A stretch of DNA of 64,000 nt. It comes from Streptomyces mirabilis. Its GTDB lineage: Bacteria; Actinomycetota; Actinomycetes; Streptomycetales; Streptomycetaceae. The position numbers and the translations under genes were made by a program. Positions 21,639 through 46,755 of this stretch are shown one piece after another. How positions within the stretch are numbered: position 1 is the stretch's first letter; the number at the start of each line of letters is the position of its first letter. Location of the stretch: NCBI RefSeq assembly GCF_039503195.1, contig NZ_JBCJKP010000001.1:8432001-8496000 (forward strand), written 5' to 3'. The notes under the pieces are model-generated. The model saw only the letters and a program-made list of their open reading frames with translations, did no database searches and was not told where the DNA came from.

Positions 21639-21647
21639 CCGGAATCA

Positions 21648-30776: not shown

Positions 30777-30795
30777 GTTAGGAAAGTTTCCTTAC
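30777..30795. promoter_or_regulatory. CsnR-type chitosanase operator
   Basis: GTTAGGAAAGTTTCCTTAC is a 19-bp near-perfect palindrome (one mismatched pair besides the centre base) 17 bases upstream of the chitosanase start. GGAAAGTTTCC palindromes ahead of Streptomyces chitosanase genes are recognised by the ROK-family repressor CsnR, as I recall. Confidence 0.65.
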
Positions 30796-30995
30796 CGGGT
30801 TGCGGTACAAGGTGGGCCCTCTTGCATGACCGCGTCAAGCCCTCCGGCGGAGTTGGTCCGGTCCCGGGGTTGAAACCGGCGTGGGGGCGTGTCGACGCGG
30901 GTGGGGGAAGTCGATGTGTGTGGGGGCAAGACGCCGCCGGCCCGGACGCGCGGTGCGCGTCCGGGCCGGGGCAGGTCAGTCGATGAGGGCCGGGC

Positions 30996-31829
30996 TCAGC
31001 CCATGTCGAACGTCGCCGGGTCGGGGCCCAGGCGACGGTCCTCGTTCAGTGCGCTGATCGCCGCGATGTCCTCGGTGTCCAGCGAGAAGTCGAAGACGTC
31101 GATGTTCTCCTTGATCCGGGACGGGGTCACGGACTTGGGGATCACGACGTTGCCCAGCTGGATGTGCCAGCGCAGCACGATCTGGGCCGGAGTGCGGTTG
31201 TGCTTCTGGGCGATGGCGACGATCGCCGGGACCTCCAGCAGGCCCTTGCCCGAGCCGAGCGGGGACCAGGCCTCGGTGGCGATGCCCTGCTGCGCGTGGT
31301 ACTCGCGGGCCGCGTGCTGCTGGAGGTGCGGGTGCAGCTCGATCTGGTTGACGGCCGGGATGACGGACGTCGCCTCGATCAGCTGCTCCAGGTACTCCGG
31401 GTAGAAGTTGGAGACACCGATGGCCTTGATCCGGCCGTCCGTGTAGAGCTTCTCGAAGGCCTTGTACGTGTCGATGTACTTGCCCCGGGACGGCAGCGGC
31501 CAGTGGATCAGATACAGGTCGAGGTAGTCCAGGCCGAGCTTGTCCAGGGACGTGTCGAACGCGCGGAGCGTCGAGTCGTACCCCTGGTCGCTGTTCCAGA
31601 GCTTGGTGGTGACGAAGAGTTCCTCGCGGGGGATGCCGGAGGTGGCGATGGCCTTGCCCGTGCCCTCCTCGTTGCCGTAGATCGCCGCGGTGTCGATGCT
31701 GCGGTATCCGGACTCCAGCGCCGTGGCGACGGCCTGCTCCGCCTCGTCGTCCGGGACCTGCCAGACACCGAAGCCCAGCTGCGGCATCTCGACGCCGTTG
31801 TTCAGGATGATCGGGGGGACCTTGCTCAC
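30996..31829 (-). CDS. aldo/keto reductase
   Basis: 277 aa AKR5-like (2,5-didehydrogluconate reductase type). Tetrad visible: Asp and Tyr in RSIDTAAIYGNE (about 47-58), Lys in VTTKLW (about 80) and His in LIHWPLP (about 113). The NADPH-binding IPKS is near 235. It reduces aldehydes or sugar ketones in the cytoplasm. Start GTG at 31829 follows a GAGAG; 17 codons of open frame upstream were not used. Divergent from pqqA across ~280 bases. Confidence 0.85.
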   Translation of the reverse strand: MSKVPPIILNNGVEMPQLGFGVWQVPDDEAEQAVATALESGYRSIDTAAIYGNEEGTGKAIATSGIPREELFVTTKLWNSDQGYDSTLRAFDTSLDKLGLDYLDLYLIHWPLPSRGKYIDTYKAFEKLYTDGRIKAIGVSNFYPEYLEQLIEATSVIPAVNQIELHPHLQQHAAREYHAQQGIATEAWSPLGSGKGLLEVPAIVAIAQKHNRTPAQIVLRWHIQLGNVVIPKSVTPSRIKENIDVFDFSLDTEDIAAISALNEDRRLGPDPATFDMG

Positions 31830-31977
31830 GAGCTCTCGATCCTTAAGTCGTCGAATGGTACTCCCATGGTCAACGATCACCGGCCGTTATGCATTCCTGA
31901 CCGGCGGATTAGCTGTGGATTCCTGGTGAGGGTCGGAGATTGGCCGGAAATGGATCCGACCTTATCGGTCCGGACCA

Positions 31978-31983
31978 TTGACC
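31978..31983 (+). promoter_or_regulatory. possible -35 element for the pqq run
   Basis: TTGACC lies 128 bases upstream of pqqA. A weak -10 (CACTCT at 32001-32006, 17-base spacing) follows. Confidence 0.25.
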
Positions 31984-32022
31984 GAGTTCCGTCATCCGAC
32001 CACTCTGTAGGGCGTCACCGAA

Positions 32023-32038
32023 CGGGTTCATGAACCCG
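32023..32038. promoter_or_regulatory. perfect 16-bp palindrome ahead of pqqA
   Basis: CGGGTTCATGAACCCG is completely self-complementary and lies 72 bases upstream of the pqqA ATG, immediately downstream of the candidate promoter. Position and symmetry fit a repressor operator for the whole 12.5-kb run; the regulator is not in the window. Confidence 0.55.
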
Positions 32039-32110
32039 GTGCACGCATGTGAACACCAGCACCTGTCTGGGCTCTACACCCCCACCCATCAGGAAAGCAG
32101 GTACGCGCAC

Positions 32111-32305
32111 ATGAACATGAGCGCCCTCGAAGGCCGCCGCGCGGAGCAGGTCATCCGGGAAACATCGGAGGAAAGCGTCTGGGAGACCCCCGGGTATCTG
32201 GTCGTCGAGACCGCCCTGGAGGTCACCGCGTACGCCCTCGGTGACCGCCTTGGCCCGGTTACCGAACGGGCAACCGCCGGGCCACACCTGGCACGCACGG
32301 CCTAG
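32111..32305 (+). CDS. pqqA: PqqA precursor peptide
   Basis: 64 aa. The core WETPGYLVVETALEVTAYAL carries the PqqA landmarks: Trp-x-x-Pro and the Glu and Tyr of EVTAY that PqqE cross-links to form the PQQ backbone. It is much longer than proteobacterial PqqA (about 23 aa), with 24 extra residues before the Trp and about 20 after the core. The ATG at 32111 is the first of two close ATGs after AGGAAAGCAGG. pqqC follows 18 bases downstream. Confidence 0.82.
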   Translation: MNMSALEGRRAEQVIRETSEESVWETPGYLVVETALEVTAYALGDRLGPVTERATAGPHLARTA

Positions 32306-32323
32306 CCCCACGGTTGTCGAACC

Positions 32324-33712
32324 ATGACCGCGACACCGGTGCGCGACGACGGTGCCGCGGCCCCTTGGGGAACCGCCGAGTTCACCGAGCGGCTGCGCGC
32401 CGTCGCCGAGGACCGCTACCACGACCGCCATCCCTTCAACGTCCGTATGCACCAGGGCGAGTTGACCCCGGCCGAGCTGCGCCGCTGGATCATCAACCGC
32501 TTTCACTACCAACGCCACATCCCCGTCAAGGACGCCCTGATCCTCGCCAAGTTCGACGATCCCGCACTGCGACGGGTGTGGGTCCGCAGGATCCAGGACC
32601 ACGACGGCACGGCCGTCGGGCAGGGCGGCATCGAACGCTGGCTGAGGCTCGGCGAGGCCGCCGGCCTCGAACGGCCGGCGCTGTGGGACACCGCCCGGGT
32701 GCTGCCCGGCGTCCGGCTCGCGGTCGAGGGCTACGTCAACTTCTGTCGCCTGCGCCCCGTGTTCGACGCGGTCGCCGCCTCCCTCACGGAGCTGTCCGCA
32801 CCGGGGCTGATGCGCACGCGGATCGCCGCGTTCGAGCGGTACTACCCCTGGATCGAGGCAGAGGGGCTCGCGTATTTCCGTACCCGCATCGGGCAGGGCG
32901 GCCGTGACAGCGAGGAGGCACTCGCCCTGGTCCAGGGCTGGGCGCGCACCCGTGAGCAGCAGGAACGGGCCGTGGCGGCGCTGACGTTCAAGTGCGAGGT
33001 GCTGTGGGCGCTCCTGGACGCGGTGGACCGGGTGAGCGACTCCGTTCCGACGGGCACGTCGGAACGGGTGTCGGGAGGTACCCCTCGGGGCGACCCAGCC
33101 GCCGCACCGGGCACCCTGCCGCGCGCGTCGGGCCGCGGCCGTCGGGGTGGGTCGGGGAGAGGTTCGGATCAACTGCCGGGTGCCTTGGGCGGGGTGGCGG
33201 GGGATGCGTTGCCCGTCGCGGCTGAGGATGCGCCGGGGGATGTCTCGGCCCTCGCGTCCGGGCGCGTGCCGGGCGATGTCTCGGGCCTCGGGTCCGGGCG
33301 TGCGCCGGGGGATGTCTCGGGCCTCGGGTGTGAGCGTCCACCGGGGGATGTCTTGTCCTTGGTGTCTGAGGGTGTGTCCAGAGATGCCTCGCCCCGTGTG
33401 TCTGAGCATGTGTCGGGGGATGTCTCGGCCCTCGGGACCGAGTCGGCGTCAGGAGACGTCCCGGCCGAAGGCGCTTCGCCGGGTGTGTCGGATTCCGTGG
33501 CGACTCCGCGTGGGCGCGAGCCCGCGCAGGGGTGTCCCCGCGCCGCGCGGGACGTGGCCGGCGGCGACGTGGCTTCCGGGGCGTCGGGCGCGACGGCGCA
33601 GGCGCGGACCTCGGGTGCGTCGATGCCGACGAAGGTCCCGGGCCGCCACCCCGGCGCACCCGCGCAGACGGGCACCCCGGTGGTTCCGGGCCCCGCAGGG
33701 GGCCCGCCATGA
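32324..33712 (+). CDS. pqqC: PqqC with a long repetitive C-terminal tail
   Basis: 462 aa against a usual ~240. Residues 1-235 are a standard PqqC/TENA-fold oxidase: YHDRHPFNVRMHQGEL, NRFHYQRHIPVKDALIL and RRIQDHDG. The enzyme performs the final cofactor-free eight-electron oxidation and ring closure to PQQ. Residues from about 240 on are low-complexity, including seven 12-residue repeats with core PGDVS. The tail is in frame and ends in ATGA overlap with pqqD. It may be disordered, or an insertion that expanded. Confidence 0.85.
   Translation: MTATPVRDDGAAAPWGTAEFTERLRAVAEDRYHDRHPFNVRMHQGELTPAELRRWIINRFHYQRHIPVKDALILAKFDDPALRRVWVRRIQDHDGTAVGQGGIERWLRLGEAAGLERPALWDTARVLPGVRLAVEGYVNFCRLRPVFDAVAASLTELSAPGLMRTRIAAFERYYPWIEAEGLAYFRTRIGQGGRDSEEALALVQGWARTREQQERAVAALTFKCEVLWALLDAVDRVSDSVPTGTSERVSGGTPRGDPAAAPGTLPRASGRGRRGGSGRGSDQLPGALGGVAGDALPVAAEDAPGDVSALASGRVPGDVSGLGSGRAPGDVSGLGCERPPGDVLSLVSEGVSRDASPRVSEHVSGDVSALGTESASGDVPAEGASPGVSDSVATPRGREPAQGCPRAARDVAGGDVASGASGATAQARTSGASMPTKVPGRHPGAPAQTGTPVVPGPAGGPP
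33230..33481 (+). repeat. 36-bp coding tandem repeat in pqqC
   Basis: Seven consecutive 36-bp units, each giving 12 residues of type (A/V/P)-(P/S)-G-D-V-S-x-L-x-S-x-R. The first three are closest (APGDVSALASGR, VPGDVSGLGSGR, APGDVSGLGCER); later units diverge. Length is a multiple of three throughout, so frame is kept. Confidence 0.85.
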
Positions 33713-33963
33713 GCTGGCGTCCTGTTCTCGCCCACGCCGTGATGCTCCGTCATGATCCCGTCCGCGACACCGACTTGCTGCTCATGCCCGAACGCGTCGT
33801 CGTCCTGCGCGGCCACGCCGGGAGCGTCGTCCGGCTCTGTGACGGCAGGCGCGAGGTGCCCGAGATCGTCGCCGCGCTCGCCGAACGGTTCCCCGGCGCG
33901 CCGGTGACCGACGAAGTACCTCGATTCCTCTCGGCGTTGCACGAGGAGGGCTGGCTGCGATGA
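33709..33963 (+). CDS. pqqD: PqqD peptide chaperone
   Basis: 84 aa, normal size. The RiPP-recognition fold is evident: RPVLAHAVMLRHDPVRDTDLL start, a VVLRGHAGSVVRLCDG middle and the EVPEIVAALAERFPG helix, ending DEVPRFLSALHEEGWLR-like. It binds PqqA and presents it to PqqE. ATGA overlaps with both pqqC and pqqE imply tight translational coupling. Confidence 0.87.
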   Translation: MSWRPVLAHAVMLRHDPVRDTDLLLMPERVVVLRGHAGSVVRLCDGRREVPEIVAALAERFPGAPVTDEVPRFLSALHEEGWLR

Positions 33964-35045
33964 CCTCGACCGTCGATCCCCCCTGGGCCCTGCTGGCCGA
34001 ACTCACCCACGGCTGCCCGCTGCGCTGCGCGTATTGCTCCAACCCCGTCGAACTGATCAGTCGGTCAAGAGAGCTGACCGCCGAACAATGGACCGACGTC
34101 TTTCACCAAGCCGCTGAACTGGGCGTTGTCCAGACCCACCTGTCCGGCGGCGAACCCCTCCTCAGGCGCGATCTCGCCCGGATCGTCGCCGCCGCCGACA
34201 CCGTGGGCCTCTACACCCAGCTCGTCACCAGCGGTGTGGCCCTGCACGAGCGAAGGCTCGCGGAGCTGCTGGACGCGGGACTGCGCAGCGTCCAGCTCTC
34301 CGTACAGCACACCGATCCCCAGGCCGCCGAACGCATCGCGGGAGCCCGCGCGTTCACCGCCAAGGAGCGCGCCGCACGACTGGTGCGGGCGACAGGGCTG
34401 CCACTCGGTCTGAATGTCGTGCTGCACCGGGCCAACATCGACGCCGTCGACGACCTGATCACGCTCGCCGTCACCTGGGGCGCCGACCGGATCGAGCTCG
34501 CCCACACGCAGTACTACGGCTGGGCCGCCCGCAACCGTGCCGCCCTGCTGCCGACCCGGGATCAGGTCGAACAGGCTCGCGTCACCGTGCGCCGCCGACG
34601 CGAACAACTCACCGGTTCCCTGGAGTTGGTCTGGGTCGCCCCGGACCTGCTCGACGCCACCGCGAAACCCTGCATGGGCGGCTGGGGCGCCGTTTCCCTC
34701 ACCGTCGCCCCGGACGGCACCGCCCTCCCGTGCCCCTCCGCCGCGACACTCCCCGCACTCGACGCGCCGAACGTGCGCGCACACCGGCTCGACTGGATCT
34801 GGCGCCAGTCGAAGGCCTTCAACGCCTACCGGGGCGAGGCCTGGATGCCGGACCCCTGCCGCGGCTGCGCCCTGCGCGCGACCGACTTCGGCGGCTGCCG
34901 CTGCCAGGCGTACGCGCTCACCGGCGACGCCTCCCGCACCGACCCGGCCTGCCGCCACGCACCCGACCACCACCTCGTCCGCGCGCTCGTCGACGAGGCC
35001 CCGCTCAGGAACTCCGCCTACGCCTACCGAGAGGGAGGAACATGA
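33960..35045 (+). CDS. pqqE: PqqE radical SAM/SPASM cross-linking enzyme
   Basis: 361 aa. Radical SAM cluster motif CPLRCAYC (residues 19-26), SAM-binding LSGGEPLLRRDL, and SPASM-domain cysteines for auxiliary clusters (CMGGWGAVSLTVAPDG, DPCRGCALRATDFGGCRCQA). It forms the Glu-Tyr carbon-carbon bond in PqqA using SAM and reductant. Its stop overlaps the start of the secreted GH105 gene, so a cytoplasmic cofactor enzyme and an extracellular hydrolase are directly coupled. Confidence 0.9.
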   Translation: MTSTVDPPWALLAELTHGCPLRCAYCSNPVELISRSRELTAEQWTDVFHQAAELGVVQTHLSGGEPLLRRDLARIVAAADTVGLYTQLVTSGVALHERRLAELLDAGLRSVQLSVQHTDPQAAERIAGARAFTAKERAARLVRATGLPLGLNVVLHRANIDAVDDLITLAVTWGADRIELAHTQYYGWAARNRAALLPTRDQVEQARVTVRRRREQLTGSLELVWVAPDLLDATAKPCMGGWGAVSLTVAPDGTALPCPSAATLPALDAPNVRAHRLDWIWRQSKAFNAYRGEAWMPDPCRGCALRATDFGGCRCQAYALTGDASRTDPACRHAPDHHLVRALVDEAPLRNSAYAYREGGT

Positions 35046-36241
35046 GACGACGACTGCGGGCAGCGCTGATGGCGGGCGTGCTCACCACCGCCGTCCTGAC
35101 CACGGTGGCCGCCACCGCACCCCCGACACCTTTACCCCGAGGGCCTGTGGGGAGGCCCGCCGCCGCCCAGGACTGGTCCGTCGCCCTGATCGACTCGACC
35201 ATGGCCCGCTACACCCCGAGCACGATCGGCGGCTGGTCGTACCCGGTCGGGCTGTACCTCTACGGCCAGTACCTCACGTACCAGCGCACGCACGACGCCC
35301 GCTATCTCACCTACATCAAGAGCTATGTCGACCGCTTCGTGTCGAGCGACGGTTCGATCGGCCAGAGCTTCAACAGTCTCGACAGCATGCAGGCGGGCCG
35401 GCTCCTGACGATCCTGCACCACGAGACGGGCCAGGACCGCTACCGCAAGGCGGCCCTGAAGATCCGGAACCGTCTCAACACCTACCCACGCACCTCCGAC
35501 GGAGGCTTCTGGCACGCCGACACCAGCAGCCGGGCCCACCAGCTCTGGTCGGACGGCGTCTACATGGTGAACCCGTTCCTCGTCGAGTACGGCAAGGAGT
35601 TCGGGGACGCGACCTACGCGAACGACGAGGCAGCCAAGCAGCTCTACGTCTACGGCAACCACCTCCAGGTGGCGAGCGGCCTGTTGAAGCACGCCTACGA
35701 CGAGTCGAAGACGGCGAGCTGGGCCGACCCGGCGACCGGCCTCGCCCCGGAGCACTGGTGCCGGGCGGTCGGCTGGTACGCGATGGCGATCGTCAACGTG
35801 CTCGACGCGATCCCGGTCAACCACCCCAGACGGCCCCAACTCATGGGCAGCTTCAGGAGGTTGGCCGCCGGGCTGGAGAAGTACCAGGACCCGGCCACCG
35901 GCCGCTGGTTCCAGGTGATCGACAAGGGTGCCCGCAGCGACAACTGGACCGAGACGTCCTGCTCCAGCATGTTCACCTATGCCCTCTCGCGCGGCGCCCA
36001 GCAGGGCTACCTCGATCCGCACTTCGCGACCGTCGCCGGACGCGGTTACCAGGGCGTCCTGGCCAGGATGTCGGTCGGCTCCGACGGCCGTACCAACCTC
36101 ACCGACATCTCCATCGGCACCAATGTCGGCGACTACGCGTACTACGTCGCCCGCGACCGGGCCACGAACGACTTCCACGGCCTCGGCGCCTTTCTGATCA
36201 TGAACGAACAGCTCACAGCCCACCCACTCAGGACGAGGTGA
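35042..36241 (+). CDS. secreted GH105 unsaturated rhamnogalacturonyl hydrolase
   Basis: 399 aa. Signal peptide (about 1-41), then a GH105/GH88-type (alpha/alpha)6 barrel with the catalytic-loop motif LWSDGVYMVNPFLVEYGKEF. It removes unsaturated uronic acids left by pectate or rhamnogalacturonan lyases. Most bacterial GH105s are cytoplasmic, so the signal peptide is notable. ATG overlaps the pqqE stop; GGGAGGAAC is the Shine-Dalgarno. The next gene follows 7 bases after the stop. Confidence 0.8.
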   Translation: MRRRLRAALMAGVLTTAVLTTVAATAPPTPLPRGPVGRPAAAQDWSVALIDSTMARYTPSTIGGWSYPVGLYLYGQYLTYQRTHDARYLTYIKSYVDRFVSSDGSIGQSFNSLDSMQAGRLLTILHHETGQDRYRKAALKIRNRLNTYPRTSDGGFWHADTSSRAHQLWSDGVYMVNPFLVEYGKEFGDATYANDEAAKQLYVYGNHLQVASGLLKHAYDESKTASWADPATGLAPEHWCRAVGWYAMAIVNVLDAIPVNHPRRPQLMGSFRRLAAGLEKYQDPATGRWFQVIDKGARSDNWTETSCSSMFTYALSRGAQQGYLDPHFATVAGRGYQGVLARMSVGSDGRTNLTDISIGTNVGDYAYYVARDRATNDFHGLGAFLIMNEQLTAHPLRTR

Positions 36242-36248
36242 GTCAGCC

Positions 36249-37034
36249 ATGAGCACCACCAGAAGGACCCTGCTCGGCGCGGCGCTCGGCGGCGCCGCCG
36301 GAGCCGCGGTCGGCATCCCGGCCACCGCCGCCCACGCCGCCTCCTGGCAGCTGAAGTGGTCGCCGTCGGCGAGCGGCGACAAGCTCGGCGCCTTCGAGAC
36401 GATCGAGGACGACCGCGCCGACTCGCACCCCGCGGGCCGGCCGCACATCTTCGCCACCGGCGACAACTGGCGCTTCAACATGCACACCGTCGACCGCGAC
36501 ACCTCCACCGACCGTCAGCGCCAGGAGGTCACCGGGCTGCGTACGAGCGGCAGCAGTTATCTCAAGTGGACAGCCGGGCAGACCTGGCGACTCACGTACT
36601 CGATGTACATCCCGAGCTCGCTGAAGGCGACCACGACCTTCACGCACATCATGCAGATGAAGCAGCCGGGTACCGGCACCTCGCCGATCGTCGTGCAGTC
36701 ACTGCGCCGGGTGAACGGCGTGCAGACCATCGAGCTGAAGCTCGCCATCGACGACATCCTCATCGGCCGCACGGACTTGGATCCGCTGCACGACAAGTGG
36801 ACGGACGTCGACTTCCAGATCAAGGTCGGTGACGGCACGTCGGGCTCGGTCCGCTGGATCCTCAAGAGCGGCTCGACCACGATCATCGACAAGTCCAGGG
36901 CGGGCGTCGACACCTTCCTCGCCGACCGGGTGCGCCCCAAGTGGGGCATCTACCGGTCCCTCGGCGACACCTCCGGGTCCCTGCAGGACTGCTACCTGCT
37001 GCTGACCAACCTGCGCGGCTACCAACTGGTATGA
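36249..37034 (+). CDS. Tat-secreted polysaccharide-lyase-like protein
   Basis: 261 aa. Twin-arginine signal (TTRRTLLGAALGG, cleavage near residue 31 after AHA). The mature part is an all-beta jelly-roll-like sequence (FNMHTVDRDTSTDRQRQEVT, FTHIMQMKQPG, WGIYRSLGDTSGSLQDCYL) resembling the heparin-lyase-I-type Polysacc_lyase family. Likely acts on uronic-acid polysaccharide; exact substrate and PL number cannot be assigned. GAGGTGA serves as ribosome site; it is 12 bases ahead of the fusion gene's start. Confidence 0.65.
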   Translation: MSTTRRTLLGAALGGAAGAAVGIPATAAHAASWQLKWSPSASGDKLGAFETIEDDRADSHPAGRPHIFATGDNWRFNMHTVDRDTSTDRQRQEVTGLRTSGSSYLKWTAGQTWRLTYSMYIPSSLKATTTFTHIMQMKQPGTGTSPIVVQSLRRVNGVQTIELKLAIDDILIGRTDLDPLHDKWTDVDFQIKVGDGTSGSVRWILKSGSTTIIDKSRAGVDTFLADRVRPKWGIYRSLGDTSGSLQDCYLLLTNLRGYQLV

Positions 37035-37045
37035 GGAGCCGTTCC

Positions 37046-40000
37046 ATGAAACCCCCCATGAGAAAACGGAGTTGGGCGGCGAGCGTCTTCTTCGCCTTCG
37101 CCGTCGTACTCGGCCTGACCCACCCCGAGGCCCTCGCGGCCCCCCGAACCGCCACCCCACCCACGTCCACCACGGCGCCCACGTCCACCACCGCACCCCA
37201 CGCCGCCGTCTTCGACGTCCACGACTACGGAGCCAAGGGCGACGGCTCCACCAACGACACCCCCGCCATCAACAAGGCCATCACCGCCGCCAACGCCGCG
37301 GGCGGCGGCACCGTCCGCTTCCCCGCCGGCCAGTACAAGTCCAAGAACACCATCCACATGAAGAGCGAGGTCACTCTTCAAGTGGACAAGGGCGCGACGA
37401 TCCAGGGCTCCAGCGCGGACACCTACGACCCGCCCGAGGCCAACCCCAACGACGCCTACCAGGACTACGGGCACAGCCACTTCCACAACGCGCTGATCTA
37501 CGGCGACCGACTGACACACATCGGCTTCGTCGGTGAGGGCGTCATCGACGGCCTCGGCAACCTCATCACCGGCAACCCCAAGTCCGGCGAGGCCGACAAG
37601 ATCCTCTCGCTGACCCGCTGCGACGGCCTGCGCCTCGGCGACGGCCTCACCCTGCGCCGCGGCGGCCACTTCGCGGCCCTCATCAACGGCTGTACGAACG
37701 TCACCTCGGACCACCTGACCATCGACACCGCGAGCGACCGCGACGGCTGGAACATCATCAGCACGACCAACGTCACGGTCACGAACGCCAACATCAAGGC
37801 CAACGACGACGCCCTCGTCTTCAAGAGCGACTACGCGCTCGGCGCCAAGCTCCCCAACGGCCACGTGCGGGTGAGTGATTCGTATCTGTCGGCGGTGTGC
37901 TGCAACGCCCTGATGTTCGGGTCCGAGACCTGCGGAGACTTCTCCGACTACCAGTTCGCCAAGATCCGCATCGAGGGCTCCAACAAGTCAGGGCTCGGCA
38001 TGGTCTCCATGGACGGCGCGAAGATCTCCGACGTCCACTACCGCGACATCACCATGACCGGCGTCCACTCGCCGATCATGCAGAAGATCGGTACCAGGAA
38101 GCGCTGCGGCAACAGTCCCGGGGTCGGCTCGATCAGCGACGTCACGTACGACAACATCACGGCGACCGGGGTGAGTCCGTCCTTCAGCCCGACGCTGTGG
38201 GGCGAGAGCGGCCACCGGATCAACGGGGTCACCTTCACCAACGTCGACATCACCGTCCCCGGCGGCAACGGCACCATGTCCACCGCCGTGCCGAGCAACG
38301 ACCCGGGCGACTACAACCCGAAGGCCATCGGCACGCGGCCCGCCTACGGCTGGTACGTCCACAACGCCGACAACGTCACCTTCACGGACAGCTCGGTGAA
38401 GTACGCGGCCGACGACGGACGCCCGGCCGTCATCGCGAACGCCGCGAACGGGATCAGGTTCACCCGGTTCACGGCCCAGCGGGGGAGCAACTCACCCCAC
38501 GACGTGGGCTTCCAGAACGTCACCGGCTACTGCCTGACGGACAGCCACAACACCTCGGGCGGCGCGCTGAGGGTTTCCGCCGGCGGCTCCAGTGAGAACT
38601 GCGCTACGGCGGCCAGGAGTACGGCGATGGCGACCACGGCCGTGCAGCGGCCGCGCGCAGGTGTGAAACCGCTCGACCTCGAAAACCCCCGCCAGGCCTT
38701 CCTGCGCGGTTCCGTCGGCGGACTCTTCCTGCACTGGGGCGAACGCACCGCCCCCGCCCACACCAGCTGCACCGCCTGGGAGAACGACGTCACCAACGGC
38801 GGCTGGACTCCGGACTACTGGGTGAACGAGGCCCAGAAACTGCACACCCAGTACCTCGTCCTCGCCACCTTCCACAGCCGCCTCGGCTACGCCCGCCCCT
38901 GGCCCTCGAAGATCCCCGGCAGCTGCTCCACCAAGCGGGACTTCCTCGGCGAACTCATCACCGCCGCCAAGGCCAAGGGCCTCAAGGTCATCCTCTACAT
39001 GACCGACGACCCCCAGTGGCACAACGAGGGCGGCCACGAGTGGCTCGACTCCGCTGCGTACTCCGCCTACAAGGGCACGGACGTCGACCTGACCACCCGT
39101 GACGGCTTCGGCCGCTTCAGCTACGACAACTTCTTCGAGGTCATGGACCGCTATCCGGACCTCGGCGGCTTCTGGATCGACAACGACAACGCGTACTGGG
39201 AGAGCCACGACCTCTACGCCCAGATCCAGCAGAAGCGCCCCAACTACACGCTCAGCAACAACAACGAAGACACGCCGATCATGGACATGATCAGCAATGA
39301 GCAGAAGACGGGCATGACCCCGTCCTACGACTACCCCCAGGCCGTCTACACGGCCCAGCCCCGCCTCACCGAAGCCGACTTCAAGCTGCCGTCGAGCGGA
39401 GCGTGGTGGTACGACGGCTCCAACCCCTCCGTCGACAAGATGCTCACCCTCGGCCGACTGATCACCAACGCGGGCTCCTCCGTGAAGGCCCTGATGGCCG
39501 AGACCGCGCAGGTCAACGGCAAGTTCCCGACGAACCAGGAGGCCTTCAACAACTTCGCCAACTCCTATCTCGGCCCCATCTGGCAGTCACTGCACGGCAC
39601 CGAGGGCGGCGGCTACATGTACGGCGGCCTCAAGCCCGGCTTCTGGAACGACGGAGCCCACGGTGTCACCACGGTCAGCAAGACCGACCCCGACCTGCAG
39701 TACCTTCACGTGCTGACCCCGCCCAGCACCAGCACCCTGCGCATCCGCGACAACGGCTACCGCATCGCCTCCGTCACCAACCTCCGTACCGGAGCGGCTG
39801 TTTCGTGGTCCCAGTCGGGCGGCGTGCTCACTCTGACCGGCCTGGCGAACTGGGACCCCTACGACACCGTCTTCAAGGTCACCACGGCCGGCCGCCAGGG
39901 CATCGCGTCCGGCGTCACGATGTCCGCGAGCGCCGCGGCGAGCGGTCACGGCGCGGCGGCCGCGGGCGACGGCGACTACCTCACCTACTGGGACAGCGAC

Positions 40001-42535
40001 AAGACGCTGCCCGTCAGCCTCACCTTCGACCTCGGCAGCGCGAAGAAGGTCCAGTACATCGGCCTCAACCAGCGCGAGGACTCCGTCGCCTACGCGCGCT
40101 CCGACACCGAGCAGTCCGCACGTATCAAGGACTACAAGGTGTTCCTCAGCAACGACGGGTCCACCTGGGGCAGCGCGGTCAAGACCGGTCAGCTCGCCGG
40201 TCGGCGGGGCATCCAGGGAATCGACCTGACCGCCACCAACGCCCGATACGTACGCCTCGAAGTGGACACCACCTGGGCCGCGTCCACCGACACCACCCGC
40301 TACAAGCGGCTGCGGATCGACGAGGCCTGGATCGGCACGTCGTACGCCACCCCGGCGGCCACCGTCAACACGTACTCGGACAACGGCCAGGCCCTCCGAC
40401 CCGCCATGGGCTGGAGCAGCTGGAGCTTCGTGCGCCGCTGGCCGACCGAGGCGAAGATCAAGGCGCAGGCCGACGCGCTCGTCGCGAGCGGGCTCAAGGA
40501 CCACGGCTTCGTGTACATCAACCTCGACGACTTCTGGCAGAAGTGCGACGCGAACGGATTCGTCGTCGACTCCTACGGACGCTGGACCGTCGACACCGCC
40601 AAATTCCCTGCCGGGATCAAGGCGCTGGCCGACTACATCCACTCCAAGGGGCTCAAGTTCGGCTTCTACGTGACGCCGGGCATCGCCAAGAACGCCGTCA
40701 CCAGGAACACACCGATCGAGGGGACCTCGTACCACGCGGCCGACATCGCGGACACCTCGAAGACCGAGAAGAACTACAACTGCAAGAACATGTACTACAT
40801 CGACTACGGGAAGCCGGGCGCCCAGGAGTTCGTGAACTCGTGGGCCAGGCAGTTCGCCTCCTGGGGAGTCGACTACCTGAAGATCGACGGGGTGGGCAGC
40901 GCCGACATCCCCGACGTCCAGGCCTGGGACAAGGCGCTGCGCGCCACCGGCCGGCCCCTCACCTTCGCCCTCTCCAACAACCTGCCGATCGCGGGCGCCT
41001 CCACCTGGAGGTCACTGGCGAACAGCTGGCGCACCCAGGGCGACGTCGAGTGCTACTGCGGCTCGGGCGCGAACGGCAGCGGCTATCCGCTGACCGACTG
41101 GTCGCACGTCTCCGCCCGCTTCACCTCGGCGGCCAACTGGCAGCAGTACGCGGGCCCGGGGGGCTGGAACGACCTGGACTCGCTGGAGATCGGCAACGGC
41201 GACCAGGCGGGCCTCACCGCCGACCAGCGCCGCTCGCACTTCACCCTGTGGGCGATGGCGGGCGCGCCCCTGCTTCTCGGCACGGACGTGACGAACCTCG
41301 ACTCCGTCGACAAACCGATGCTCACGAACGACCGGCTCATCGGTGTCGACCAGGACGGCGTCGCCGCGAAACGGATCGTGAACAGCGGTGTCAAGCAGGT
41401 CTGGTCCAAGAAGGAGAGCGACGGCCAGTACGTCGTCGCCCTCTTCAACACCGGCACGTCCGGCAACACCACGGTCGGTGTGAACTGGTCGCAGGTCGGC
41501 TTCACCGGCTCCGGTGACGTCACGGACCTGTGGTCGGGCTCCCACAAGGGCACGATCGCCGACTCGTACAGCGCGACCCTGCGCCCCGGGGAGACGCGCC
41601 TGATCCGGGTGAACCCGGTGAGCACCGCCCTGAAGACCGCCGCGGCCTCACCCGGCATGGCGGTGGCGCCCTACGAGTACCTCGGCTGGGGCAGCCCGCA
41701 GAACCCGACCTCGGTCATGTCGGCCACCGGGGTGAAGTGGTTCACGCTCGCGTTCGTCCTCTCCGACGGCTCCTGCAACCCGAAGTGGGACGGCTCGCGC
41801 CCGCTGACCGGCGGCAACGACCAGTCGAAGATCAACGCGATCCGCGCGGCCGGCGGTGACGTCGTCGTCTCCGTCGGCGGCTGGAGCGGCGCCAAACTCG
41901 GCGAGAAGTGCTCCAGCGCCTCGGCGCTCGCGGGCGCCTACCAGAAGGTCGTCAACGCCTACGGCCTCAAGGTCATCGACATCGACATCGAGAACACCGA
42001 GTGGAGCAACGCCACCGTCAGACAACGGGTGATCGACGCGCTGAAGATCGTGAAGGCCGGCAACCCCGGGCTCAAGACGATCATCACCTTCGGCACGACG
42101 ACCGGCGGCCCGGACTCCACCGGCGTCGACATGATCAAGCGCGGCGCCGCCTCGGGCCTCGCCAACGACATCTGGTGCATCATGCCGTTCGACTTCGGCG
42201 GCGGCACCGCGAACATGGGCACGCTCACCACCCAGGCCATGGAGGGCCTCAAGGCGCGGGTCAAGTCGGCTTATGGATACAGCGACGCGACGGCGTACGC
42301 GCACATCGGCCTGTCGTCCATGAACGGCAAGACCGACGACTCCGGTGAGCTGGTCCGCGTCGCCGACTTCAAGACCATGCTCGTCTACGCCCAGCAGCAC
42401 CACATCGGGCGCCTCACCTACTGGTCCGTGAACCGCGACCGGGCCTGCGGCTCCGGTTCCGACGGTGACTCCTGCAGTGGCGTGTCGCAGCAGCCGTACG
42501 ACTACCTCAAGGTCTTCGCCCAGTACACGGGCTGA
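37046..42535 (+). CDS. secreted four-module glycosidase: GH28-GH29-CBM-GH27-GH18
   Basis: 1829 aa in one frame. Signal peptide (1-32) and Thr/Pro linker; GH28 beta-helix (about 54-530; FDVHDYGAKGDG, NDDALVFKS); GH29-like fucosidase (about 540-950; GGLFLHWGE, nucleophile region GGFWIDNDNAYWE); F5/8-type C / CBM32-like module (about 952-1105); GH27 (about 1110-1528; AMGWSSWSF, nucleophile in DYLKIDG, GGWNDLDSLEIGNG); GH18 chitinase-like (about 1535-1829; SVGGWSG, DIDIEN). The GH18 DxxDxDxE lacks its first Asp. Start ATG at 37046 has GAGGAG 7 bases upstream; an ATG at 37031 overlaps the previous stop. Possible targets are pectin galacturonan backbone plus fucosyl and galactosyl/arabinopyranosyl side chains. 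Confidence 0.85.
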   Translation: MKPPMRKRSWAASVFFAFAVVLGLTHPEALAAPRTATPPTSTTAPTSTTAPHAAVFDVHDYGAKGDGSTNDTPAINKAITAANAAGGGTVRFPAGQYKSKNTIHMKSEVTLQVDKGATIQGSSADTYDPPEANPNDAYQDYGHSHFHNALIYGDRLTHIGFVGEGVIDGLGNLITGNPKSGEADKILSLTRCDGLRLGDGLTLRRGGHFAALINGCTNVTSDHLTIDTASDRDGWNIISTTNVTVTNANIKANDDALVFKSDYALGAKLPNGHVRVSDSYLSAVCCNALMFGSETCGDFSDYQFAKIRIEGSNKSGLGMVSMDGAKISDVHYRDITMTGVHSPIMQKIGTRKRCGNSPGVGSISDVTYDNITATGVSPSFSPTLWGESGHRINGVTFTNVDITVPGGNGTMSTAVPSNDPGDYNPKAIGTRPAYGWYVHNADNVTFTDSSVKYAADDGRPAVIANAANGIRFTRFTAQRGSNSPHDVGFQNVTGYCLTDSHNTSGGALRVSAGGSSENCATAARSTAMATTAVQRPRAGVKPLDLENPRQAFLRGSVGGLFLHWGERTAPAHTSCTAWENDVTNGGWTPDYWVNEAQKLHTQYLVLATFHSRLGYARPWPSKIPGSCSTKRDFLGELITAAKAKGLKVILYMTDDPQWHNEGGHEWLDSAAYSAYKGTDVDLTTRDGFGRFSYDNFFEVMDRYPDLGGFWIDNDNAYWESHDLYAQIQQKRPNYTLSNNNEDTPIMDMISNEQKTGMTPSYDYPQAVYTAQPRLTEADFKLPSSGAWWYDGSNPSVDKMLTLGRLITNAGSSVKALMAETAQVNGKFPTNQEAFNNFANSYLGPIWQSLHGTEGGGYMYGGLKPGFWNDGAHGVTTVSKTDPDLQYLHVLTPPSTSTLRIRDNGYRIASVTNLRTGAAVSWSQSGGVLTLTGLANWDPYDTVFKVTTAGRQGIASGVTMSASAAASGHGAAAAGDGDYLTYWDSDKTLPVSLTFDLGSAKKVQYIGLNQREDSVAYARSDTEQSARIKDYKVFLSNDGSTWGSAVKTGQLAGRRGIQGIDLTATNARYVRLEVDTTWAASTDTTRYKRLRIDEAWIGTSYATPAATVNTYSDNGQALRPAMGWSSWSFVRRWPTEAKIKAQADALVASGLKDHGFVYINLDDFWQKCDANGFVVDSYGRWTVDTAKFPAGIKALADYIHSKGLKFGFYVTPGIAKNAVTRNTPIEGTSYHAADIADTSKTEKNYNCKNMYYIDYGKPGAQEFVNSWARQFASWGVDYLKIDGVGSADIPDVQAWDKALRATGRPLTFALSNNLPIAGASTWRSLANSWRTQGDVECYCGSGANGSGYPLTDWSHVSARFTSAANWQQYAGPGGWNDLDSLEIGNGDQAGLTADQRRSHFTLWAMAGAPLLLGTDVTNLDSVDKPMLTNDRLIGVDQDGVAAKRIVNSGVKQVWSKKESDGQYVVALFNTGTSGNTTVGVNWSQVGFTGSGDVTDLWSGSHKGTIADSYSATLRPGETRLIRVNPVSTALKTAAASPGMAVAPYEYLGWGSPQNPTSVMSATGVKWFTLAFVLSDGSCNPKWDGSRPLTGGNDQSKINAIRAAGGDVVVSVGGWSGAKLGEKCSSASALAGAYQKVVNAYGLKVIDIDIENTEWSNATVRQRVIDALKIVKAGNPGLKTIITFGTTTGGPDSTGVDMIKRGAASGLANDIWCIMPFDFGGGTANMGTLTTQAMEGLKARVKSAYGYSDATAYAHIGLSSMNGKTDDSGELVRVADFKTMLVYAQQHHIGRLTYWSVNRDRACGSGSDGDSCSGVSQQPYDYLKVFAQYTG

Positions 42536-42547
42536 GGGGACGAACCC

Positions 42548-44575
42548 ATGAAACTCAACAGAACGCTGCCCTGGTGCCTCTCGCTCGTCCTGGCCGTGCC
42601 GCTCGTCGCGCTGACCGGCACGGCGGCGCAGGCGGCCACCGACTACCAGGCCGAGGACGCCACGATCTCGCAGGGCGCCGTCGCCACCAACCACACCGGC
42701 TACACGGGCACCGGCTTCGTCGACTACACCAACATCACCGGCTCGTACGTGGAGTTCACGGTGAGCGCGGCCACGGCCGGCACCTCCTCGCTGGCCCTGC
42801 GCTACGCCAACGGCACGACCGTCGACCGCCCGATGGACCTCTCCGTCAACGGTACGGTCGTCGCCTCCGGTGTCTCCTTCCCGGCCACCGCCGACTGGAA
42901 CACCTGGGCGACGAAGAGTGTGAACGTCCCGCTCGATGCGGGTTCCAACAAGATCCGCGCGACCGCCACCACGGCGAACGGCGGCCCCAACCTCGACCGT
43001 GTCGGCGTCGGTACCGCCGCCGACACCCAGGCACCCTCGCGGCCGGGCCAGCCGAGCTGCTCGGCCATCGGCGAGGACGGCCTCACCCTTTCCTGGGGTG
43101 CCTCCACGGACAACGTCGGCGTGTCCGCGTACGACCTCTACGAGCACGGCAACAAGCTCGGCGAGGCGGCCGGTGACGCGACCTCCAAGGTGCTCACCGG
43201 CCTGAGTCCGAACACCACCTACAACCTCACCGTCATCGCCCGCGACGCCGCCGGCAACGCCTCCCAGGCCAGCCCGGTCGTCGACTGCACGACGCGGCCC
43301 AGCTCCGACACCACCCCGCCCGGCAAACCCGGCACCCTCACCTCCTCGAACGTCACGGCCACCAGCGCCGACCTGAGCTGGGGCGCCTCGACCGACGACA
43401 AGGCGGTCGTCGGCTACGACGTGCGCAGCGACACGACGGTCTACAAGAGCGTCACCGGTACGTCGACCACGCTCACCGGGCTCGCCTGCAACAGCCCGTA
43501 CACGCTGAACGTGGTGGCGCGCGACGCGGCCGGCAACGTGTCGCCGCAGAGCAACACGGTCACCTTCACGACCAAGGCCTGTGCCACCGACGGCGGGGTC
43601 CCCTCGTCCATCGGGACCGTCTCCAGCGGCTGGACGATCCCCTGGGGCACGTACTGGATGCCCGACGGGCAGACGGCGCTGGTCACCGAGCGGGACGACT
43701 TCCGGGTCTGGAGGGTCACCAAGGACGGCACGAGGACCCAGGTCGGAACCGTGCCGAACGCCGTCACCACGAACGGCGAGGGCGGACTGCTGGGTGTGGC
43801 CGTCGACCCGAAGTGGGCCACCAACCACTACGTGTACTTCATGCACACGGCCTCGGAGGGCAACCGCGTCGTCCGCATGACCTACGACGGCAACTCCCTC
43901 ACCAACTACACGATCCTCCTCCAGGGCATCAAGAAGAACCGCTACCACAACGGCGGACGCCTCGCCTTCGGTCCCGACGGCTATCTGTACGTCTCCACCG
44001 GCGAGGCCCAGACACCCGAACTGGCCCAGGACAAGACGTCGTTGAACGGCAAGATCCTGCGGATGACGACGGACGGCAAGGCCGCCCCCGGCAACCCGTT
44101 CGGCAACTACGTCTACAGCTACGGGCACCGCAACCCGCAGGGCCTCGCCTTCGACCGCAACGGCCGCCTGTGGGAGGCGGAGTTCGGCAACAGCTCCAAG
44201 GACGAGCTCAACCTCATCAAACCGGGCGCCAACTACGGCTGGCCGACCTGTGAGGGCAGCTGCAGCGTCTCCGGGATGACCAACCCGAAGGCGACCTGGA
44301 ACGTCTCCGAGGCGTCACCCAGCGGCATCGCGATCGTCCGCAACGTCGTCTACATGGCGTCCCTGCGCGGCGAACGGCTGTGGCGCATCCCCCTCACCGG
44401 CGACACGGAGAACGTCGGCACGCCGACGGCGTACTACGTCGGCACCTACGGCCGGCTGCGTACGGTCACCGAGGTGCCCGGCGCCGACCAGCTCTGGCTC
44501 TCCACCACCAACTGCGACAACAACGGAGGAGCGGCGGACGGCTCGGACAAGATCTTCAAGGTGAGCATCAACTAG
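42548..44575 (+). CDS. secreted PQQ-dependent sugar dehydrogenase with CBM35 and two FnIII
   Basis: 675 aa. Signal peptide (1-29, AQA), CBM35-like module (about 32-158; YQAEDATISQGAVATNHTG), two fibronectin III domains (about 165-255 and 262-347), then a six-bladed GDH/pyranose-dehydrogenase propeller (about 353-675; GGLLGVAVDPKW, YHNGGRLAFGPDGYLYVSTG, GHRNPQGLAFDRNGRLWEAEFG). It oxidises aldose sugars to lactones with PQQ and passes electrons to a cytochrome, quinone or other acceptor. The only PQQ-using enzyme seen, it ends the run that begins with pqqA. Carbohydrate-binding and FnIII modules on this enzyme class are unusual. Confidence 0.87.
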   Translation: MKLNRTLPWCLSLVLAVPLVALTGTAAQAATDYQAEDATISQGAVATNHTGYTGTGFVDYTNITGSYVEFTVSAATAGTSSLALRYANGTTVDRPMDLSVNGTVVASGVSFPATADWNTWATKSVNVPLDAGSNKIRATATTANGGPNLDRVGVGTAADTQAPSRPGQPSCSAIGEDGLTLSWGASTDNVGVSAYDLYEHGNKLGEAAGDATSKVLTGLSPNTTYNLTVIARDAAGNASQASPVVDCTTRPSSDTTPPGKPGTLTSSNVTATSADLSWGASTDDKAVVGYDVRSDTTVYKSVTGTSTTLTGLACNSPYTLNVVARDAAGNVSPQSNTVTFTTKACATDGGVPSSIGTVSSGWTIPWGTYWMPDGQTALVTERDDFRVWRVTKDGTRTQVGTVPNAVTTNGEGGLLGVAVDPKWATNHYVYFMHTASEGNRVVRMTYDGNSLTNYTILLQGIKKNRYHNGGRLAFGPDGYLYVSTGEAQTPELAQDKTSLNGKILRMTTDGKAAPGNPFGNYVYSYGHRNPQGLAFDRNGRLWEAEFGNSSKDELNLIKPGANYGWPTCEGSCSVSGMTNPKATWNVSEASPSGIAIVRNVVYMASLRGERLWRIPLTGDTENVGTPTAYYVGTYGRLRTVTEVPGADQLWLSTTNCDNNGGAADGSDKIFKVSIN

Positions 44576-44619: not shown

Positions 44620-46446
44620 TCATGCCCGGTACAACGCCTCCACCTCCGTCGCGTACGCGTTCTCGATCGCCTTCCGCTTCAACTTCAGCGACGGCGTCAG
44701 CAGCCCGTGCTCCTCGGTGAACTGGTTCGCCAGTATCCGGAACGTACGGATCGACTCGGCCTGCGAGACCAGGGTGTTCGCGGCGACCACCGCCCGCCGC
44801 ACCTCGGTCTCCAGGTCCGGGTCGCGCACCAGGTCGGACGGGGACAGCCGCGTCTTGCCCCGCATCTGCAGCCAGTGTTCGACGGCCTCGGAGTCGAGGG
44901 TGACGAGCGCCGCGATGTACGGCCGGTCGTTGCCGACCACGATGCACTGGGCGACCAGCGGATGGTCACGCACGCGCTCCTCCAGGACGCCCGGCGAGAC
45001 GCTCTTGCCGCCGGAGGTCACCAGGATCTCCTTCTTGCGCCCGGTGATGGTGAGAAAGCCATCCTCATCGAGGGTGCCGAGGTCGCCGGTGGCGAGCCAG
45101 CCGTCGTGCAGTGCGGCGTCGGTGGCCTTGGGGTCGTTCAGATAGCCCTGGAAGATGTTGTCGCCGTGCAGCCAGATCTCGCCGTCGTCCGCGATGTGCA
45201 CGGTCGTGCCCGGAATGGCCTGGCCGACCGTCCCGTACCGGGTCCGCTCGGGCGGGGTGACGACGGCGGCGGCGGTGGTCTCGGTGAGCCCGTATCCCTC
45301 GTAGATCTGGATGCCCGCGCCGGCGAAGAACAGCCCGAGCCGACGGTCCATCGCGGAGCCGCCCGACACCGCGTGTCTGACCCGGCCGCCCATGGCGGCG
45401 CGCATCTTGGTGTAGACGACCTTGTCGAAGAACTGGTGCTGCATCCGCAGGCTCGCCGACGGCCCGGCGCCGATCCCCCACGCCTTCGCCTCGATCGCGT
45501 CCGCGTAGCGGACCGCGACCTCCACGGCCTTCTCGAAGGCTCCGGACTTTCCGTCCTTCTCGGCCTTGCGGCGGGCCGCGTTGAAGACCTTCTCGAAGAT
45601 GTACGGCACCGCCAGGATGAACGTCGGCTGGAACGCGGCCAGGTCGGGCAGCAGCACGGCGGCATGCATCTGAGGCTGATGGCCCAGCTTGACCTTCCCG
45701 AGGACTCCCGCGACCTGGACCATCCGCCCGAAGACATGCGCGAGCGGCAGGAACAGCAGTGTGGACGCCTGGTTGTCGCGCTTGGAGGTGAAGATCGGTT
45801 CCATGAGCCCGATGACCGTGCTCGCCTCGGCCATGAAGTTGGCGTGCGAGATGACGCAGCCCTTGGGGCGGCCCGTGGTGCCCGAGGTGTAGATGATCGT
45901 CGCGATCGACTCGGGGGTGACGGCGCGCCGGTGCCGGTGCACCACCTCGTCGTCGATGCCCGCGCCCGCCTCGTAGAGCTCCTGCACCGCGCCGGAGTCC
46001 AGTTGCCAGAGTTTGTGCAGCTGGGGCAGTCGGTCGATCACCGTGGCGATGGTCATCGCGTGGTCCTCGTGCTCGACCACCGCGGCCGACACCTGCGCGT
46101 CGTGCAGCATCCAGAAGACCTGCTCGGCCGAGGACGTCGAGTACATGGGGACGACGTGGGCGCCGATCGTCCACAATGCGTAGTCGAAGAGTGTCCATTC
46201 GTAGCGGGTACGGGACATGATCGCGACCCGGTCCCCGAACCGGATCCCCTGGGCGAGCAGCCCTTTGGCAAGGGCGAGGACCTCGTCACGGAACTCGGCG
46301 GCCGTCACATCGCGCCACTGTCCGTTCTCGTCCTTGCGGCCGAACGCGGCCCGCAGCGGGTCCTCCTGGGCATGGTCGAAGACGACGTCGGCCAGGCCGC
46401 CCACCGGCGGCGCCGACGCCAACGGAGGGTTGGTGAACTCGCGCAA
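44620..46446 (-). CDS. long-chain fatty acyl-CoA synthetase (FadD15-like)
   Basis: 608 aa ANL-superfamily adenylating enzyme: phosphate loop IIYTSGTTGRPKGCV (about 172-186), YGLTETTAA, GDLGTLDEDGFLTITGRKKE and the C-terminal Lys region SLKLKRKAI. It activates fatty acids as acyl-AMP and transfers them to CoA. The TTG start at 46446 was chosen because AGGAG lies 6 bases ahead and the product then begins with the family's REFTNPPL; a longer frame to 46545 has a Pro/Arg-rich leader. Converges on the dehydrogenase gene. Confidence 0.87.
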   Translation of the reverse strand: MREFTNPPLASAPPVGGLADVVFDHAQEDPLRAAFGRKDENGQWRDVTAAEFRDEVLALAKGLLAQGIRFGDRVAIMSRTRYEWTLFDYALWTIGAHVVPMYSTSSAEQVFWMLHDAQVSAAVVEHEDHAMTIATVIDRLPQLHKLWQLDSGAVQELYEAGAGIDDEVVHRHRRAVTPESIATIIYTSGTTGRPKGCVISHANFMAEASTVIGLMEPIFTSKRDNQASTLLFLPLAHVFGRMVQVAGVLGKVKLGHQPQMHAAVLLPDLAAFQPTFILAVPYIFEKVFNAARRKAEKDGKSGAFEKAVEVAVRYADAIEAKAWGIGAGPSASLRMQHQFFDKVVYTKMRAAMGGRVRHAVSGGSAMDRRLGLFFAGAGIQIYEGYGLTETTAAAVVTPPERTRYGTVGQAIPGTTVHIADDGEIWLHGDNIFQGYLNDPKATDAALHDGWLATGDLGTLDEDGFLTITGRKKEILVTSGGKSVSPGVLEERVRDHPLVAQCIVVGNDRPYIAALVTLDSEAVEHWLQMRGKTRLSPSDLVRDPDLETEVRRAVVAANTLVSQAESIRTFRILANQFTEEHGLLTPSLKLKRKAIENAYATEVEALYRA

Positions 46447-46755
46447 TCCCGCTCCTAGTGGCGCTCCGCACAGCGCCGTGAAAGCTACCCCACCGCGCCG
46501 TCGGGCGGGAGGGGGCCGGAGCGGGGGTGTGTGCGGCATATGCACAGGTCAGCCGAGAAAATGCCCGCACAAGGGGAAGGGCCGGACAGAATCCCGTACG
46601 GTTCCGTAGGTTTCGGTCCCGTAATCTCCACGGAATCTGTACGACCCTCCTACGGGGTGCGGGGCGCCGAATACCGGACACGGGATCTCCGATTCCGTGC
46701 TGTGCGGCGACCGCCGGAGCCGGTCCCGGTGGCTCCGGGACCGGCTCCGCCGGCG
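46447..46755. other. intergenic stretch without a recognised gene
   Basis: It contains a CGTACGGTTCCGTAGG-like region near 46597 that could hold promoter elements for the acyl-CoA synthetase gene, and the terminator at 46716-46748. No credible coding sequence was found. Confidence 0.4.
46716..46748. terminator. strong hairpin terminator
   Basis: A perfect 14-bp stem GGAGCCGGTCCCGG / CCGGGACCGGCTCC with a 5-nt loop lies 8 bases past the stop of the minus-strand MFS remnant, marking an authentic ancestral gene end. Confidence 0.75.

Follow-up and report, generated by a model that had tools for sequence, protein, structure and literature searches.

The 64,000-nucleotide stretch of the Streptomyces mirabilis genome considered here (the window; C1:8,432,001-8,496,000 of the 11.1-Mb genome) contains a run of genes in which the biosynthesis of pyrroloquinoline quinone (PQQ) is joined by position to a set of secreted sugar enzymes. 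Eight genes lie on the + strand between window positions 32111 and 44575 in the order pqqA, pqqC, pqqD, pqqE, GH105, a polysaccharide-lyase-fold protein, a giant multi-domain glycosidase and a dehydrogenase, which agrees in order, strand and coordinates with the head-to-tail run described in a first-pass annotation of this DNA. The tight spacing given there, with overlaps at three junctions and gaps of 18 bases or less at the others, is also borne out: pqqA and pqqC are separated by 18 bases, the C/D, D/E and E/GH105 junctions each overlap by 4 bases, and the remaining gaps are 7 bases (GH105 to lyase), 11 bases (lyase to giant, or 0 with an earlier start of the giant) and 12 bases (giant to dehydrogenase).

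Gene content and predicted products

Three of the four cofactor genes encode proteins that score above their NCBIfam cut-offs, namely PqqC (32324..33712; TIGR02111, 274 versus 240 bits), PqqD (33709..33963; TIGR03859, 70.5 versus 46) and the radical SAM/SPASM protein PqqE (33960..35045; TIGR02109, 496.5 versus 381.35), the last being the only match over this cut-off in the genome. The PqqC profile match spans residues 17-235 of 462 and is followed by a low-complexity C-terminal tail of about 225 residues, within whose coding sequence lies a 36-bp tandem repeat of 6.6 copies (33198-33434). The precursor peptide PqqA (32111..32305; 64 amino acids, core ETALEVTAY) falls slightly under the TIGR02107 cut-off (18.7 versus 20 bits), and the E-x-x-x-Y core is kept both here and in each of 17 aligned relatives.

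All four enzymes that follow have, by eye, signal-like N-terminal segments. The GH105 protein (35042..36241) matches Glyco_hydro_88 (PF07470) with 298.7 bits, and its best solved relative is YteR (1nc5, E 4e-81), so that it is best described as a putative unsaturated rhamnogalacturonyl hydrolase; the catalytic position, Asp in 1nc5 and Asn in 2gh4, is Asp here. The next protein (36249..37034) begins with a segment that contains, by eye, a twin-arginine motif (TTRRTLLG), and it reaches 28.5 bits against Polysacc_lyase (PF14099), short of the gathering score of 29.9. Its AlphaFold model (mean predicted local distance difference test, pLDDT, 75) gives Foldseek matches to PL7, PL20 (2zzj) and PL13 lyases, and the fold agrees with uronan lyases. 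Among the 50 matches listed the highest query-length template modelling score (TM-score), 0.56, belongs to the PL20 glucuronan lyase 2zzj, and the PL7 matches have better E-values; since the model resembles all three families alike, it does not decide the substrate.

The giant (37046, or 37034, ..42535; about 1830 amino acids) contains, from Pfam, NCBIfam and phmmer matches, a GH28 module, a GH29-like module (Alpha_L_fucos, weak at 35.3 bits), an F5/8C domain, a GH27 module with its C-terminal domain and a C-terminal GH18-type module, the last unlisted by Pfam and matched by phmmer to 9buf (E 1.2e-48). The GH28 module is nearest to the rhamnogalacturonidase BT4146 family, with 302 bits under a cut-off of 500. 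The earlier description of a four-module glycosidase thus holds for the catalytic modules and leaves out the additional carbohydrate-binding-like domain.

The last gene (42548..44575) encodes a secreted CBM35-FnIII-FnIII-GSDH protein, predicted to be a PQQ aldose dehydrogenase of the Asd type. Pfam reports GSDH (PF07995, 238 bits), two FnIII domains and CBM6/CBM35, and the best match in the Protein Data Bank (PDB) is 3das (E 3.6e-95, 322 bits across the domain), the aldose sugar dehydrogenase of S. coelicolor according to the excerpted text of PMC6881789. The window copy has the PQQ-contact motifs H-N-G-G, R-N and G-R-L-R, and the enzyme probably uses PQQ. The first-pass annotation had drawn a parallel to fungal AA12 enzymes that can feed lytic monooxygenases, which is not supported: the dehydrogenase matches the bacterial type, the 13 PDB sequences at E <= 1e-3 include, judged by molecule names, no fungal AA12 chain, and Pfam gave no monooxygenase domain for the proteins of the run or for the other window proteins scanned, a subset of the open reading frames. 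The same genome holds a core-type GSDH copy (L035 / L220, G000:C1:7127246; G and L numbers denote genomes and loci), 48% identical to the dehydrogenase of the run and with the same contact-motif positions, and a further large GSDH protein with PKD and CBM6 domains about 29 kb downstream of the run (L219:9177-11681, G000:C1:8505177-8507681).

Ahead of pqqA, alignment of the window with 17 relatives reveals a conserved region (31935..32110, + strand) in which a nearly invariant block contains the palindrome GGTCCGGACC (31967-31976) and, in the window, a -35-like TTGACC (31978-31983), a 17-nt spacer and a -10-like CACTCT (32001-32006). The palindrome lies 142-213 bases ahead of the pqqA match in 17 of 17 fetched loci whose pqq cassette has no pqqB (B-less loci) and that have at least two of GH105, PL, GH28 and GH29-like, and it also occurs in L182 and in two GSDH-only loci. 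A strict sigma-70 scan reported no promoter, and terminator-like sites numbered 7, where 4.8 are expected. A DasR-like operator was considered and set aside: of 12 positions compared with the DasR consensus the palindrome mismatches at 3, and because three-mismatch matches are common in the window we name no regulator.

Recurrence across Streptomyces and loss of pqqACDE

In a sample of 392 Streptomyces genomes, one per species and drawn evenly, pqqE (PqqE at E 1e-100) was found in 86 genomes at 101 loci, the locus of the window included; about 9.3 kb was fetched on each side of the other 100, and less at contig ends. The loci fall into 77 close ones (PqqE identity 66-100%, the window among them) and 24 distant ones (50-58%). 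At the close loci GSDH is present in at least 63 of 77, a lower bound because L188 and L193 have GSDH just beyond the fetched span, and the six sugar-enzyme modules are frequent too: GH105 in 30, lyase-like in 25, GH28 in 21, GH29-like in 25, GH27 in 21 and GH18 in 20, with three or more of the six in 26. The linkage of pqqE to GH105 or GH28, for which the first-pass annotation proposed a neighbourhood search, is therefore positive at 30 and 21 of the 77 loci. At the distant loci the corresponding counts are 0/24 for GSDH, 0/24 for GH105 and 1/24 for GH27. Forty-two control stretches, which comprise 41 around pqqB copies (mostly solitary) and 20 kb after the window and are not a random sample, gave one GSDH, one GH29-like, one GH18 and no GH105 match; the GSDH and GH29-like matches fall in L257 and L258, two stretches that themselves include fragments of pqq loci (pqqE and pqqC), and this weakens the control but leaves the case for linkage as it was. 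Among named genomes, taking the best 80 of 588 candidates, a GSDH match accompanies 16 of 20 Streptomyces pqqE loci and GH105 10 of 20, and at the 60 non-Streptomyces loci there are 10 GSDH matches and no GH105, lyase or giant. These counts support a conserved linkage of the GSDH-type dehydrogenase and the secreted glycosidases to the pqq cassette, beyond what chance would give. The set is variable in its parts: in L139, L141, L146, L148 and L167 the parts are kept together with altered order and strand and with a GH105 that is 51-54% identical, and the GH18 module was not found in L199, L205, L207, L210 and L215 despite the presence of GH28, GH29-like and GH27. A plasmid origin was also considered and rejected, no near match being present among 72,556 plasmid records.

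Many of the linked loci occupy one chromosomal site. An aldo/keto reductase upstream (30996..31880 in the window, - strand, divergent) and an acyl-CoA synthetase downstream (44620..46545, - strand, convergent), recognized by domain matches and conserved neighbourhood and lying outside the run, flank the locus in many relatives, although in several loci one flank is outside the fetched span. Between these flanks may be found pqqABCDE alone (L185), pqqABCDE-GSDH (L172, L191, L195), pqqABCDE-GH105-lyase-GSDH (L209) or the B-less full operon. Beside the reductase in the window is a GH75 chitosanase (30065-30838, - strand), which recurs in 16 of the 17 fetched B-less loci that have two or more GH modules. 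Farther upstream the window contains an IS605-type OrfB/TnpB-like protein (27404-28765) and a cellulase cluster with CBM2 (16955-23448), consisting of GH48 (-), GH5 (+) and GH6 (+).

The same site exists without the cofactor genes. In 17 genomes a dehydrogenase module sharing 78% identity or more with that of the run is present although no PqqE was detected at E 1e-100 and, again in all 17, no PqqC at E 1e-30; GH105 lies within about 10 kb on the same strand in 15 of these pqq-less genomes, and in 14 the divergent reductase is 255-696 bases from GH105 (match ends), compared with 3.2 kb in the window. In three more genomes pqq lies apart from the GH-GSDH operon (G376, G253 and G261, the last on separate draft contigs). 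Five further genomes without PqqE (G344, G357, G367, G353, G294) have a dehydrogenase that is 65-72% identical. Stretches upstream of GH105 were fetched for 17 loci, 15 from pqq-less genomes and two from genomes with pqq elsewhere (G253, G376), and pqq-like remnants matching the pqqA-pqqE region of intact relatives (E 1e-6 or better) were detected in six (G084, G275, G011, G183, G264, G376), and thus in five of the 15 pqq-less stretches, with none in the reversed control. The longest in G084 is 198 bases, G275 has 148 and 115 bases, and the other four have 33-77 bases. In G275 a pqqA-like frame in which Cys replaces the precursor Tyr lies beside a pqqE-like start matching residues 2-47, and pqqA-like and pqqE-like fragments can be seen by eye in G068; nine pqq-less stretches gave no remnant match to this region. 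In a tree of the dehydrogenase, copies that are pqq-less or unlinked sit within a clade whose remaining branches are pqq-linked, where well-supported branches force at least four changes of the pqq-less label and parsimony needs nine. We read this pattern as repeated loss of the cofactor cassette rather than repeated gain.

The block GGTCCGGACCATTGACC is retained ahead of GH105 in 10 of the 17 stretches without pqqACDE (8 of 15 pqq-less and both pqq-unlinked ones). Its position before pqqA and, where pqqACDE is absent, before GH105 supports one shared promoter, and together with the gene spacing it would fit a single operon transcribed from that point.

The dehydrogenase that stays behind appears to be maintained. 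The His of H-N-G-G is kept by 59 of 61 pqq-linked copies and by all 17 pqq-less ones, Arg-Asn by every copy of both kinds, and the two Arg of G-R-L-R by 50/51 and 51/51 linked and 17/17 pqq-less copies. The contacts checked were His, Arg-Asn and Arg-x-Arg, mapped to the sGDH numbering by motifs; their roles are taken in part from the excerpted text of PMC6881789. The median pairwise ratio of nonsynonymous to synonymous substitution rates (dN/dS) is 0.162 for 15 pqq-less copies (104 pairs) versus 0.169 for six linked copies (10 pairs), leaving out L275 and L277 and pairs below 80% identity or with dS >=2.5.

Where the cofactor of the window strain would come from is less simple than the earlier description of a self-contained locus making its own cofactor. 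There is no pqqB in the run, in particular none between pqqA and pqqC, its place in many relatives. A single gene found in the genome passes the pqqB cut-off, at C1:1,521,820 (L218:9812-10699; G000:C1:1521820-1522695, - strand), about 6.9 Mb from pqqE at C1:8,465,969. This solitary pqqB shares 36-47% identity with pqqB copies that stand between pqqA and pqqC, and 52 and 50% with the pqqB located after pqqE in L118 and L154. Of 22 genomes with a B-less pqqE locus, 21 have a pqqB elsewhere (the exception is G219; the 22 derive from 27 loci minus L138, which lies on a 3 kb contig), compared with 17 of 306 genomes without PqqE; one of these 17, G354, does carry a pqqE fragment of 157 residues. For some of the 21, such as G193 and G128, a second pqq locus carries the other pqqB. 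PqqB is thus available to the pathway, though not encoded at the locus, and pqqB is still present in four pqq-less genomes with the operon (G183, G068, G275, G084). For PqqF, two weak matches in the genome did not reach the cut-off. Since pqqB is unlinked, no PqqF exceeds its cut-off and 17 of 392 genomes keep the dehydrogenase with neither PqqE nor PqqC detected, self-containment is not supported; what stands of the proposed oxidative polysaccharide locus is a conserved linked set of pqq cassette, secreted glycosidases and a GSDH protein that retains the PQQ-contact positions.

By eye the neighbours of the solitary pqqB look SseB-type, MarR-type and glyoxalase-type, in conserved order, and the MarR-type neighbour was found in 15 of 17 genomes counted as pqqE-less. 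In many genomes this pqqB is also beside an ABC sugar transporter with GH42 and GH53 (galactan-type), which may be coincidence because many genomes that have pqqB but no pqqE show the same order. Near the pqqB start in L218, the one solitary-pqqB locus scanned, the upstream palindrome has no close copy, leaving co-regulation unsupported.

Weighing the interpretations

The explanation we prefer, with a probability of roughly 0.6, is that of an inherited, fixed-site Streptomyces operon for the extracellular oxidative breakdown of pectin of the rhamnogalacturonan I (RG-I) type, whose pqqACDE genes are dispensable and were lost in several lineages. The target would be a uronic-acid-rich plant polysaccharide, and the YteR-like GH105 and BT4146-like GH28 point to RG-I pectin with galactose, arabinose and fucose side chains as the most likely one. 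The lyase-fold protein, GH105 and the modular GH28/GH29-like/GH27/GH18 enzyme would release sugars, which the secreted carbohydrate-binding, PQQ-dependent aldose dehydrogenase may then oxidise to lactones or acids, passing the electrons to some extracellular acceptor. The pqqACDE genes at the head of the operon, together with the unlinked pqqB, could supply the cofactor, and lineages without pqqACDE would presumably take up PQQ made by neighbours for the enzymes they retain; with the dehydrogenase outside the cell, no PQQ importer would be needed.

A number of observations weigh against this explanation. PqqA and the lyase-like protein both score under curated cut-offs, the GH29-like assignment is weak and its structure model poor (pLDDT 55), and the GH18 module of the giant and the GH75 chitosanase next door do not fit a pure pectin system. 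Of the 15 pqq-less stretches, 7 do not have the upstream block. The tree was rooted at its midpoint and resolves the crown poorly, and the pairs behind the dN/dS medians of 0.162 and 0.169 include time before the losses, so that part of the signal predates them. Finally, a GSDH homologue of some kind (E 1e-60) is present in 382 of the 392 genomes, mostly of the type present without pqqE, and because such homologues are common in pqqE-less genomes the dependence on PQQ cannot be read from linkage alone.

Another view is that the association is historical, the pqq genes and the sugar operon sharing a permissive site and little beyond a promoter, with the dehydrogenase taking PQQ from any source. 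The 17 genomes with the dehydrogenase and no detected pqqE or pqqC would be expected in that case, as would the separation of pqq from the GH-GSDH operon in G376, G253 and G261, and many linked loci do represent one inherited site. We nevertheless consider it unlikely, since the five rearranged loci (L139 and its like) keep pqq, GSDH, the divergent GH105 and GH29-like together, and since GSDH near pqqE recurs in 10 of the 60 non-Streptomyces loci among the best 80 of 588 candidates. Retention of the dehydrogenase in the 17 genomes might also mean that it is a carbohydrate-binding or redox-inactive protein in vivo rather than an oxidiser of released sugars, in which case the pqq-less lineages would have lost nothing; the GSDH-like PDB matches do include hedgehog-interacting protein, which is not known to be an enzyme. 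This we regard as improbable, given that His, Arg-Asn and Arg-x-Arg are kept in 17 of 17 such copies, that the dN/dS values indicate purifying selection and that the nearest solved structure is an aldose sugar dehydrogenase.

The nature of the substrate admits another answer. The wall of Mucoromycota fungi contains glucuronic acid, fucose and chitin, and the enzyme set can be read as a glucuronan-lyase-like protein, an unsaturated uronyl hydrolase, a fucosidase, a galactosidase and a chitinase directed at such a wall instead of pectin. The GH18-type end of the giant and the GH75 chitosanase beside the operon and in 16 of the 17 B-less loci argue for a mixed or fungal target, and the top query-length TM-score of the lyase model among the matches listed is to PL20 2zzj, though PL7 has better E-values. 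As PL7 and PL13 lyases match that model about equally, as GH28 and GH105 are nearest to BT4146 (302 bits, cut-off 500) and YteR, and as GH18 was not found in five loci that have GH28, GH29-like and GH27, we hold a fungal-wall target to be doubtful and favour RG-I-type pectin.

A more tentative extension, to which we give somewhat less than even odds, is that Streptomyces species may share PQQ as an extracellular good on which their secreted oxidative degradation of polysaccharides draws. Lineages that deleted the cassette would keep a functional apo-dehydrogenase, to be loaded outside the cell with PQQ that neighbours or roots provide. Since nature offers pairs of genomes that differ in whether this site contains pqqACDE, such sharing in soil can be tested directly. 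Streptomyces rochei is reported to use PQQ for lankacidin. A conserved Gram-positive operon in which cofactor genes are joined to secreted pectin-type hydrolases and a carbohydrate-binding quinoprotein would give polysaccharide use by Streptomyces an additional, oxidative branch.

Comparison with known systems

No description of the locus was recognized in the open-access literature among the matches listed, as far as titles and abstract openings go. Two Streptomyces genome papers name pqq genes, pqqB, C, D and E in PMC12472026 and pqqE in PMC11857848, in excerpts that do not mention this context. Compared with PQQ operons of the pqqABCDE(F) type, the run has pqqA, C, D and E in the usual order, with PqqC, PqqD and PqqE over curated cut-offs, and differs in that pqqB is unlinked, no pqqF in the genome exceeds its cut-off and the operon continues into secreted glycosidases. 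The dehydrogenase resembles the bacterial Asd of S. coelicolor (3DAS) through its 322-bit domain match, and differs in being a secreted fusion to CBM35 and two FnIII domains that is linked to pqq and GH genes, whereas the core-type copy occurs in most sampled genomes, with or without pqqE. The Bacteroides RG-I polysaccharide utilisation loci, to which GH105 and BT4146-like GH28 enzymes belong, share these enzyme types with the run; here there is no SusC/D in the run, the enzymes are secreted, and a quinoprotein and its cofactor genes lie in the same run.

The fungal AA12 enzyme CcPDH is described in the excerpted text of PMC6881789 as a six-blade-propeller PQQ sugar dehydrogenase with added domains, a general type that the dehydrogenase of the run shares; bacterial Asd structures are 16-19% identical to CcPDH (Table 1 of that paper), and in our data no AA12 enzyme is among the PDB sequence matches and the domain matches of the run include neither an AA8 cytochrome nor a CBM1. 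The PQQ enzymes known so far come mainly from the periplasm of Gram-negative bacteria, and many Gram-negative bacteria that encode them make no PQQ and obtain it from the environment, according to the excerpts of PMC12124388. The PqqU-based scavenging set out there resembles the situation in Streptomyces in that a quinoprotein is kept by non-producers of PQQ, and differs in that the Streptomyces enzyme, being extracellular, would need no importer and in that some genomes still carry remnants of the lost genes at the site. Measured against these systems, what is new about the locus is its arrangement, which is conserved; the parts, namely the PQQ cassette, the RG-I-type hydrolases and the Asd-type quinoprotein, are of known kinds.

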